Below, piece after piece: positions 33,730 to 35,708 of a stretch of 64,000 nt of DNA. Origin of the DNA: Gemmatimonadota bacterium (lineage in GTDB: Bacteria > Gemmatimonadota > Gemmatimonadetes > Gemmatimonadales > GWC2-71-9); contig JAZKBR010000002.1 of NCBI GenBank assembly GCA_040388535.1, positions 1,210,838-1,274,837 on the forward strand. The letters run 5' to 3'. The notes beneath the pieces were generated by a model. It had not been told where the DNA came from and did no database searches. It was given only the letters and a program-made list of their open reading frames with translations. A program made the translations under genes and the position numbers. Within the stretch, counting starts at the first letter, position 1. Each line of letters begins with the position of its first letter.

Positions 33730-33759
33730 CTCACGGTCAACTCACGGCTACCAGACACC
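33730..33759 (+). promoter_or_regulatory. putative SARP-type operator/promoter
   Basis: CTCACGG (33730-33736) repeats at 33741-33747, an 11-bp pitch of 7-bp repeats with 4-bp spacers. Six bases later is GACACC (33754-33759) as a -10-like box. The same arrangement occurs at 35679-35708. It lies 43 bases before the lipoprotein start at 33802. The regulator at 37367 is a plausible binder (inference). Confidence 0.5.
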
Positions 33760-33801
33760 CTCGTGCGATGATGGTCACGTCCCCTTGCTGAGGTTGTCCT
33801 G

Positions 33802-35448
33802 ATGAAGTCGCCACTCCCCCTGATCCTCCTGTTGCTGGCCGGCTGCGCCGCCACCCCCACCGATTCGTCCGATACACCACAGAACGTCGTCCTCACCCTC
33901 CCGGTGGCGGAGATCAAGGTGGGCGACGAGATCCAGCTCACCGCCGTCGCGCGCAACGGCCTCGACTTCCCGCTGCCGGCGACCCCGATCGATTGGAGCA
34001 CTGATCTTCCCGCGGTCGCCACGGTGACGGCGGCCGGTCGTCTGCGCGGGGTGGCGGCTGGTACGGTGATGGTGACCGCGCGTTCGGGCAGTGCGAGCGC
34101 GACCCGCTCAGTGATTGTCCGCCCGATCGAGCCCAACTCGATCACCCTCTCGCCGCTCCCCGCCACGCTGACCGCGGGGGGGCATCTGCAATTCGTTGCG
34201 GACGTGCGCGCTGACGGTGGCTACCAGCTCCAGAATGCCTCGGTGACCTGGAGTGTCACCGGGACGGCGCTCGCGAGCATTTCAGTCACCGGGGACCTGA
34301 CCCCACTTACCGCCGGAGTCATCACTGTGACGGCGGTGAGTGGCACGGCGACCGCGAGTCACACCCTCACCGTGTTGCCGGCGCCGCCGGCGAGTGTTCA
34401 GATCTCGGGTGGCGCGAGGACCATCCGTCTCGGAGAGACCACAACACTCACCGCGTCGGTGATCGCCACGACCGGCACCACCATCGCCGATGCCCAGGTC
34501 GTGTGGAGTTCGAGTGACCCGACTGTCGTGACGGTGACATCCTCGGGCGAAGTCACTGGTGTCGGCGTGGGGCAGGCGAGTATCAACGCGAGCTTCGGGG
34601 CCCTCTCTCGCTCGGTGCCGATGCTGGTGAGCGGCACGATCACCCCGACGCACCGGATCGCCTACATCCGGGAGTACGTCGGCGGCGAACGACGGCTCGA
34701 GGTCATCGCAGAAAGTGGCGAACTCATCCTCAGTGTTCGCCCGTCGATCGATTTTCGGGTCGCAACCTTTGCCTCGCAACCCACCGTGACCCTCTCACCC
34801 GATGGCAAGACCATTGCCTACGATTGCCTTGGCGGAGTCTGCCTGTTGCAACTCGCTACCGGCAGTGCGACCCTCCTGCTCTATGGAGGGTACTCCGAGC
34901 CGACCTGGAGCGCGGATGGCTCCACCCTGGTCCTGCGCGGCGACTACAGCAGCGTCGTGCAATACAACCTGGTGACCGACGAGATCACGACCCTGCGCGC
35001 GCCGTTCTACGTCGAGCGACCGCGCCTCTCTCCCGATGGTCAGATGGTGATTTACGAATGCGATTTTTCCCGGCTCTACGAGGCGCAGTTCAGTCTTTGC
35101 CGGATGAATGCCAGCGGCAACGTGACCCTCTACAGGACCTACGGCAACGCCGTGAGCTTCGCCGCTGATGGGCGTATGGCGTACATCCGAAGTGTGGACG
35201 AGGTGGGCAGCTTCCGATTCCTGGTGGTTGAACCCCCGCAGAGTAGCCCCGCCCCGAGCGGCCCCGGCGTCGCCGAGTTCGTCGGCTTCGCGGACGTCAC
35301 CGAGATGACGTGGAGCCCGGATGGGCAGAGACTCCTGCTGGTCCGGAACGGCGAGCTCTGGGTGGTCTCCATCCCAGGGGCCGGCGACCAGCGACCATTC
35401 GGCACCCTCGTGCCCGGGAGCCGGATCTCCAGTATCAGTTGGAGATAG
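33802..35448 (+). CDS. Ig-like (Big_2) and TolB-type propeller lipoprotein
   Basis: A 548-residue lipoprotein: lipobox LLLLAGC, three Big_2-type Ig repeats at about 28-105, 110-195 and 197-280 (each with the VATVTAAGRLRGVAAGTVMVTA-like ending: ATVTAAG, ASISVTG, VTVTSSG), then a WD40-like/TolB propeller at about 285-548 (LSPDGKTIAYDC, WSADGSTLVLRGD, SPDGQMVIYEC, WSPDGQRLLLV). Probably surface-exposed adhesion or binding protein. It belongs to the duplicated SGNH/lipoprotein/SARP unit. Confidence 0.82.
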   Translation: MKSPLPLILLLLAGCAATPTDSSDTPQNVVLTLPVAEIKVGDEIQLTAVARNGLDFPLPATPIDWSTDLPAVATVTAAGRLRGVAAGTVMVTARSGSASATRSVIVRPIEPNSITLSPLPATLTAGGHLQFVADVRADGGYQLQNASVTWSVTGTALASISVTGDLTPLTAGVITVTAVSGTATASHTLTVLPAPPASVQISGGARTIRLGETTTLTASVIATTGTTIADAQVVWSSSDPTVVTVTSSGEVTGVGVGQASINASFGALSRSVPMLVSGTITPTHRIAYIREYVGGERRLEVIAESGELILSVRPSIDFRVATFASQPTVTLSPDGKTIAYDCLGGVCLLQLATGSATLLLYGGYSEPTWSADGSTLVLRGDYSSVVQYNLVTDEITTLRAPFYVERPRLSPDGQMVIYECDFSRLYEAQFSLCRMNASGNVTLYRTYGNAVSFAADGRMAYIRSVDEVGSFRFLVVEPPQSSPAPSGPGVAEFVGFADVTEMTWSPDGQRLLLVRNGELWVVSIPGAGDQRPFGTLVPGSRISSISWR

Positions 35449-35468
35449 CGCCAGACGACAAAAGACCT

Positions 35469-35530
35469 GGCAGCGATCTGCCGGAGAGTAGCTTCTCCGG
35501 CATGATCGTGTTGCACACCCTGGGCGCCAT
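35469..35530 (+). pseudogene. 5' stub of a SARP-type regulator gene
   Basis: This segment matches 37334-37396 closely: the leader GGCAGCGATCT, the hairpin, the ATG (35502) and the first codons (MIVLHTLGAI against MIVLRTLGAI). After about ten codons the match stops and sequence homologous to the SGNH gene begins on the other strand. It sits 53 bases after the lipoprotein stop, as the intact regulator sits 49 bases after its own. A deletion stub. Confidence 0.8.
35480..35501 (+). promoter_or_regulatory. hairpin directly before the regulator start (stub copy)
   Basis: GCCGGAGA (35480-35487) pairs perfectly with TCTCCGGC (35494-35501) across GTAGCT; the ATG follows at once. The GGAG ribosome-binding core is inside the stem. 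Confidence 0.6.
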
Positions 35531-35671
35531 CAGGGCGAGGTCGGCCCCAGCCGCCATCAGCGTTTCCAGGGGTGTCCCGGCAGCCCGGGCGATCGAGGCT
35601 ACCGTCTTCGGCAGCGAATTCGTGTACGTCAGCGAATTCCCCACGAAGAGCACTCGCTTGGTCCCGCTCGG
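35530..35671 (-). pseudogene. 5'-part fragment of an SGNH hydrolase gene
   Basis: The minus strand encodes RVLFVGNSLTYTNSLPKT followed by VASIARAAGTPLETLMAAGADLAL, nearly the same as residues about 40-85 of the SGNH lipoprotein at 32797-33630. The signal peptide, lipobox and Pro-rich linker are gone, and the 3' two-thirds including the Asp/His pair are gone. It is joined at one side to the regulator stub and at the other to the operator repeats. Cannot encode a working enzyme. Confidence 0.85.
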
Positions 35672-35678
35672 CGGCCAA

Positions 35679-35708
35679 CTCACGGCTGGCTCACGTCTGG
35701 CGTACACT
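35679..35708 (+). promoter_or_regulatory. putative SARP-type operator/promoter (second copy)
   Basis: CTCACGG (35679-35685) and CTCACGT (35690-35696) repeat at 11-bp pitch; TACACT (35703-35708) follows after six bases as a -10 box. This is the geometry of SARP-activated promoters, where the downstream repeat lies close to the -10 element. It lies 79 bases before the lipoprotein gene at 35788. Confidence 0.5.

Follow-up and report, generated by a model that had tools for sequence, protein, structure and literature searches.

Probable SARP-type promoters upstream of Ig-like lipoprotein genes and a recurring repeat element beside SARP genes in Gemmatimonadota

We identify two spaced repeat arrays, each directly upstream of a gene for an Ig-like lipoprotein, in a 64,000-nucleotide stretch of a Gemmatimonadota genome (the window). 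We consider it very likely that both sites are SARP-type, activator-dependent promoters which form a local regulator-target pair with the probably membrane-anchored regulator encoded at 37367, and that this module recurs in the phylum. The element, its spacing, its direction, its linkage to SARP genes, the export signals of its targets and the fold of the regulator were all computed directly.

Two related promoter regions and their -10 boxes

An earlier note on this DNA, made from its letters, had described spaced repeats before both lipoprotein genes. Both are present, as CTCACGG-TCAA-CTCACGG at 33730-33747, 5' of the first gene (site 1), and as CTCACGG-CTGG-CTCACGT at 35679-35696, 5' of the second (site 2; Table 1). 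In exact form they lie far beyond chance, as the window contains CTCACG-N5-CTCACG twice, whereas 200 block shuffles average 0.015 occurrences; with two mismatches allowed, the same pattern shows no enrichment in the window (11 matches, 14.5 expected). The stretch CGATGATG is identical at the two sites, and their promoter regions agree at 38 of 51 bases, which bears out the earlier view that the sites are related by duplication. We therefore count them as one piece of evidence.

The history of this duplication can be read from the DNA between lipoprotein gene 1 and site 2. Remnants of the SARP gene and of the divergent gene lie there, which indicates that duplication of a unit of divergent gene, promoter, lipoprotein gene and SARP gene was followed by shortening. 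The copied promoter block of site 2 starts near 35672, no more than 8 bp ahead of the first repeat; the repeats, GATGAT and the lipoprotein gene are kept, and nothing upstream of the box is retained. If this promoter still works, sequence 5' of the repeats is thus not needed. The SARP gene starts 49 bp past lipoprotein gene 2, and the two likely form one operon. It is the sole SARP gene of the window, as had been claimed, and accounts for the one match within the window among the genome's four matches to PF03704 (BTAD). The interval 35435-35720 is a mosaic of SARP gene start and then divergent-gene interior, from tandem duplication and deletion, with joints that overlap by 2-3 bp. A repetitive, CCATCACCC-like stretch, read from translated frames, lies between genes at 32722-32790.

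Table 1. Positions of the repeat arrays, -10 hexamers, genes and gene remnants in the window
Feature	Position	Strand	Remarks
Site 1, two 11-bp units TCACGGTCAAC TCACGGCTACC	33731..33752	+	C at 33730 just before
Site 1, degenerate third unit core AGAC, in 11-bp register	33753..33756	+	Overlapped by GACACC, the -10 of the earlier note
Site 1, most likely -10 hexamer GATGAT	33767..33772	+	10 nt past third AC core
Site 2, two 11-bp units TCACGGCTGGC TCACGTCTGGC	35680..35701	+	
Site 2, degenerate third unit core GTAC	35702..35705	+	Overlapped by TACACT, the -10 of the earlier note
Site 2, most likely -10 hexamer GATGAT	35716..35721	+	Held-out matrix
Lipoprotein 1, Big_2 Ig-like domains and PD40 propeller repeats	33802..35448	+	Presumed first target
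Lipoprotein 2, Big_2 domain	35788..37317	+	Presumed second target
SARP regulator, 763 aa	37367..39658	+	
Divergent lipoprotein-like gene	32797..33630	-	SGNH-hydrolase-like motif by eye; no Pfam match
Remnant of SARP gene start	35468..35530	+	55/63 identical to 37333-37395
Remnant of divergent gene 32797-33630	35529..35674	-	125/146 identical to 33383-33528

Judged from sequence, the -10 boxes of both sites are most likely GATGAT. The earlier note had instead named GACACC at 33754 and TACACT at 35703, 13 bp further upstream. These hexamers are present there, six bases past the repeats, yet both overlap the degenerate third repeat, and GATGAT is better supported by a held-out matrix. This matrix was built from 52 sites at other loci; neither the window nor its SARP clade contributed to it, and it was run on both strands of the window. 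Site 1 ranks first (18.54) and site 2 second (9.92), with 8.25 as the best score elsewhere in the window; site 2 has the lower score of the two, only slightly over that of the best unrelated position, and is marginal when taken alone. The top-scoring registers at both sites comprise the degenerate third repeat (AGAC and GTAC, respectively) followed by GATGAT as the -10, and the step of 10 nt from last AC core to -10 that holds in the clade (see below) leads to the same hexamer.

Two other placements were rejected. GACACC and TACACT have no repeat core 10 nt away; among 40 arrays, TANNNT at a gap of 8 is found only as the window's own TACACT, and at a gap of 10 in 11 arrays, a comparison biased toward that spacing by the 4 of the 40 arrays that came from pattern-chosen loci. 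CACCCT and CACTCT lie 10 nt past the second repeat, and the matrix scores this two-repeat register below the three-unit register at site 1 (8.52 vs 18.54) and, by a small margin, at site 2 (7.59 vs 9.92), although the -10 part of the matrix alone slightly prefers CACCCT at site 1 (4.75 vs 3.63). GATGAT is common to both sites, and a similar GATTCT occurs in G089. No sigma-70 consensus promoter is found at either site. The repeats stand directly 5' of the -10 in the absence of a good -35, the layout of a SARP-type operator.

A repeat element at SARP genes of relatives

Around SARP genes of related genomes, TCACG-like units are visible in arrays at 11-bp pitch. The pitch of the repeats was examined at 60 loci seeded by SARP similarity, which are among those most like the window SARP and not a random sample. 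Across 355 intergenic pieces (75 kb) from these loci, scanned with no motif chosen beforehand, TCAC pairs are found 28 times at 11 bp, whereas other pitches average 3.4; no other combination among 256 tetramers and 31 pitches deviates as much, and the count at 22 bp is also high (21). The excess at 11 bp persists when coding sequence is included (38 vs 13.1). Upstream regions shorter than 100 bp were left out. Three T-N-A-C units at pitch 11 are found in 26 of 67 SARP upstream regions, and none at pitches 8-10 or 12-14. A further set of 44 regions was taken from named contigs outside the first set, after dropping 22 named-locus regions already included. Here, three such units at pitch 11 occur in 8 regions, against 0-1 at other pitches, and 28 regions contain motif-free repeats at pitch 11 (6 of 7 matching), against 6-23 at other pitches, the 23 belonging to pitch 22. 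We rejected the possibility that the signal comes from one family of close relatives, since the arrays vary in sequence across genera and the 44-region set repeats the result, if more weakly. Direct repeats at the 11-bp pitch of a SARP-type operator are thus found both at the window sites and in the clade-wide pitch tests. TCTC and TTCT signals at 7 and 14 bp in the SARP loci were put aside as simple repeats. Tandem 7-bp repeats (tagagac-like), strong at pitches 7 and 14, occur in intergenic DNA at L001 60-215 and in SARP loci generally.

Three AC cores at pitch 11 followed by 10 nt and TANNNT occur in 17 of 111 SARP upstream regions, all reading away from the SARP gene, and no other pairing of a pitch from 7-16 with a gap from 8-12 exceeds 1 of the 111. 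Three ACG-type units at pitch 11 are present in 36 of these regions (33 away, 5 toward, some both), with 0-2 at other pitches. When 43 sites were aligned, the upstream unit, which lay outside the search pattern, showed T, A, C and G in register at 67%, 74%, 77% and 72% of sites, and the two bases after the -10 were G at 63% and 51%. Three AC cores with TANNNT reach a density of 0.866 per kb in SARP upstream regions, compared with 0.016 in the remaining intergenic DNA and 0.004 in coding sequence. The element, then, is an array of units with 11-bp pitch and the core T-N-A-C-G that stands exactly 10 nt before a -10 and in most cases points away from the SARP gene. Its share of SARP regions, only 17 to 56 of 111 depending on strictness, counts against the SARP reading. 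ACG-AC at pitch 16 with 10 nt and NANNNT is seen in 11 of 111 SARP upstream regions, above the other off-pitches.

The genes that the element faces tend to encode exported proteins. Under the looser rule, 56 of the 111 regions hold an element reading away from the SARP gene, and a downstream frame could be called for 51. A lipobox or hydrophobic N-terminus is found in 47 of these 51 box targets compared with 140 of 432 genes of the same loci, and a strict lipobox in 16 of 51 compared with 39 of 432; these counts come from a crude in-house gene caller and a hydropathy rule for export, with targets and background genes called by slightly different rules. Pfam matches among ten box targets include PAP2, Kelch, TonB-receptor plug and amidohydrolase, with a sub-threshold cupin in two. 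Two observations weigh on the other side. SARP loci lacking a detected box also have a divergent lipoprotein gene in 23 of 51 cases by strict lipobox; part of the linkage is therefore independent of the motif, and either sites there escape the motif search or different repeats do the work at these loci. The window SARP gene, moreover, lies downstream of its presumed target; the usual arrangement is divergent.

At the scale of whole genomes, three TCAC units together with the A and T of the -10 are matched 20 times across 201 genomes, 19 of which contain a match, against 4 times for the pattern read backwards and 3 at pitch 10. A SARP match lies within the 1.5-kb flanks of 9 of the 20, and two more fall in SARP loci (L043, about 40 bp past the SARP frame, and L046). 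The remaining 9 have no SARP in the flanking stretch examined, which counts against the linkage; 4 of them lie inside coding frames as called and 2 consist of simple tandem repeats. That SARP-like proteins exist outside actinomycetes is not in itself new, and they are widespread in this clade, where 196 of 201 genomes have a match. Relatives at 69 loci are mostly Gemmatimonadetes/Gemmatimonadota by named database matches; the exceptions are four closely matching contigs that carry the label Rokubacteria or Chloroflexi, and a small number of weak matches in other phyla. On those four contigs (L162, L167, L168 and L218) the SARP genes resemble those of Gemmatimonadota loci, by mis-binning or transfer, and L162 and L167 also carry the same boxes.

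The regulator and its assignment to the window sites

The protein encoded at 37367 belongs to the SARP family by architecture, with an OmpR-type winged helix followed by BTAD and residues 1-245 predicted to be AfsR-like. Pfam matches are limited to BTAD (E 7.5e-13, residues 113-237) and TPR, and Pfam finds no NOD ATPase in the regulator. A model of residues 1-262 (pLDDT 93.8) has AfsR and EmbR as its sole Foldseek matches below 1e-3, and the SARP domain aligns to AfsR with Z 18.8 over 230 residues (1-242) and to EmbR with 17.1, the next row being 12.4. A profile of the clade matches EmbR (2.7e-8) and AfsR (3e-6); the regulator sequence alone has no match in the PDB at E 0.01. Hydropathy places a probable membrane helix at about residues 278-296. 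This stretch, at 1.50, falls just under the cut-off of 1.6, which counts against a helix; 61 of 98 related SARPs reach the cut-off, as do clade mates L038 (2.57), L039 (2.33), L043 (2.48) and L191 (2.63), with L046 (1.58) below it. The model of residues 296-763 (pLDDT 89.8) aligns to the CadC periplasmic domain with Z 22.4 and rmsd 3.8 over 299 residues at 12% identity (next non-CadC 18.9), and in Foldseek TPR proteins rank as high as CadC or higher. The C-terminal domain is thus predicted to be CadC-like by fold only, with TPRs. Five box-bearing SARPs (L051, L053, L055, L113 and L162) carry by eye a kinase motif, PENILL...DFGIARA, after the SARP domain and are probable SARP-Ser/Thr kinase fusions.

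In a quick protein tree the window SARP falls in an 8-row group with SH-aLRT 99, and the window repeat unit recurs in clade mates of other genera. Two of these, L038 and L191, have CCAACTCACGGCCAA in common. At L191 it opens an array of four units that is followed at 10 nt by TATAAT, before a lipoprotein gene. Of the relatives with sufficient sequence L038 is the closest; it shows both CCAACTCACGGCCAACTCACGG and GATTCT in the window register, and its element reads toward the SARP gene.

The earlier note had proposed a SARP regulon for surface lipoproteins outside the actinomycetes. The comparative evidence strongly supports the operator part of this proposal; the spread over the genome falls away. 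The note had expected the repeat to be enriched before other genes of the genome, and the exact CTCACG-N5-CTCACG is found at only 3 places in 3.72 Mb, 2 being the window sites and the third lying within the convergent ends of two coding frames. A looser two-copy pattern gives 10 matches against 4 for its reversed control, and beyond the window sites only one match scored as intergenic. The window system would be a local regulator-target pair, not a genome-wide regulon.

Whether the regulator of 37367 is the partner of these sites has to be weighed against the other SARPs of the genome, where a protein search locates at least 5 SARP-like places and the BTAD profile 4. Another of these could be the cognate regulator, or the operator could serve repression; we regard this reading as unlikely. 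The genome's other close SARP (L056) has a divergent lipoprotein gene and an array of different units of its own (TCACG-AAACG-GAACT, 10 nt, TAGGCT; one of the 52 training sites of the matrix), and a position just 5' of the -10 fits activation. The lipoprotein at L056 (7739-9676) is related to another window lipoprotein at 40955-41983 (28% over 234 aa), which has no SARP gene directly adjoining.

A PhoB/OmpR-type response regulator would be of the same winged-helix class and would read the same pitch, since that family uses 11-bp direct repeats in place of a -35. That such a protein, and not a SARP, binds the window repeats appears slightly less probable still: the element clusters next to SARP genes and reads away from them, and the nearest SARP relatives of the window carry the same unit. 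Least credible is a chance or neutral feature copied by local duplication, for although the two sites are duplicates and the genome contains no further intergenic copy of the exact repeat, both come out at the top of the window with a matrix derived from other loci, and the same unit is found in other genera of the clade.

Proposed mechanism, known systems and significance

For the SARP encoded at 37367, we infer binding, activation, membrane topology and signal along the following lines. Monomers of the regulator would bind side by side on the 11-bp direct repeats (core T-N-A-C-G), which would stand in for the -35 element, and the bound regulator would recruit RNA polymerase to the poor -10 (GATGAT) 10 nt further on. 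This would switch on the Ig-like lipoprotein genes and, through the operon of lipoprotein 2 and the SARP gene, the regulator itself. The protein would probably be anchored in the inner membrane, with the SARP domain on the inner side and the CadC-like sensor domain on the outer side, and expression of an exported protein would then be set by an envelope signal. The repeat geometry is the same as that of AfsR and PimR, and the same mechanism is therefore the simplest reading.

SARPs have been studied as switches of antibiotic clusters in actinomycetes. For AfsR of Streptomyces coelicolor, two protomers are described side by side on the afs box, two 11-bp repeats overlapping the -35, where AfsR contacts sigma region 4 and core polymerase and rescues a poor -10, in the passages on promoter binding of PMC10936776. 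As in the window, a SARP fold is combined with two or more 11-bp repeats that replace the -35 before a weak -10 (PMC10936776). The window regulator differs from AfsR in having a CadC-like domain and a probable membrane helix instead of the NOD ATPase, and here the presumed targets are exported lipoproteins, in another phylum and often with 3-5 repeat units. The operator of PimR, a SARP-LAL regulator, is likewise described as heptamers with 4-nt spacers in two or three copies, of which at least two are needed (PMC5930380). Unlike the window, the PimR operator is given there with the consensus CGGCAAG and not TCACGG, and its target is an antibiotic-synthesis regulator gene. For SARP operators the published spacing, measured from the 3' repeat, is '8 bp from -10'.

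The window regulator resembles CadC in the predicted fold of its C-terminal domain and differs from it in having a full SARP domain in place of a plain winged helix. CadC, with which the ToxR class is grouped, has its DNA-binding domain first and then a membrane helix, and is not known to carry a BTAD domain; its membrane part lets an outside signal govern the DNA-binding part. EmbR of Mycobacterium tuberculosis shares with the window regulator the fold of winged helix plus BTAD; unlike it, EmbR is described with a C-terminal FHA domain. EmbR is controlled by a kinase. Among the papers listed in searches of the open-licence literature we found neither SARP operators in this phylum nor SARP-CadC pairings, and likewise neither the 10-nt rule nor the direction into exported genes.

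On balance we favour, with less assurance than for the window itself, a phylum-wide set of envelope-sensing one-component systems in Gemmatimonadota. Tethered SARPs with CadC-like, TPR or kinase C-termini would each have their own 11-bp array and their own exported lipoprotein or enzyme, and would act as parallel one-regulator-one-target switches by the activator mechanism of Streptomyces. The promoter grammar known from actinomycetes, with 11-bp repeats and a fixed 10-nt step to the -10, is seen here in a different phylum, in which SARP genes are numerous and adjoin genes for exported proteins. This provides a readable regulatory code for a little-studied phylum, with targets assignable to their regulators from sequence alone, and through the new pairing of SARP and CadC-like domain an envelope signal would pass directly to RNA polymerase.
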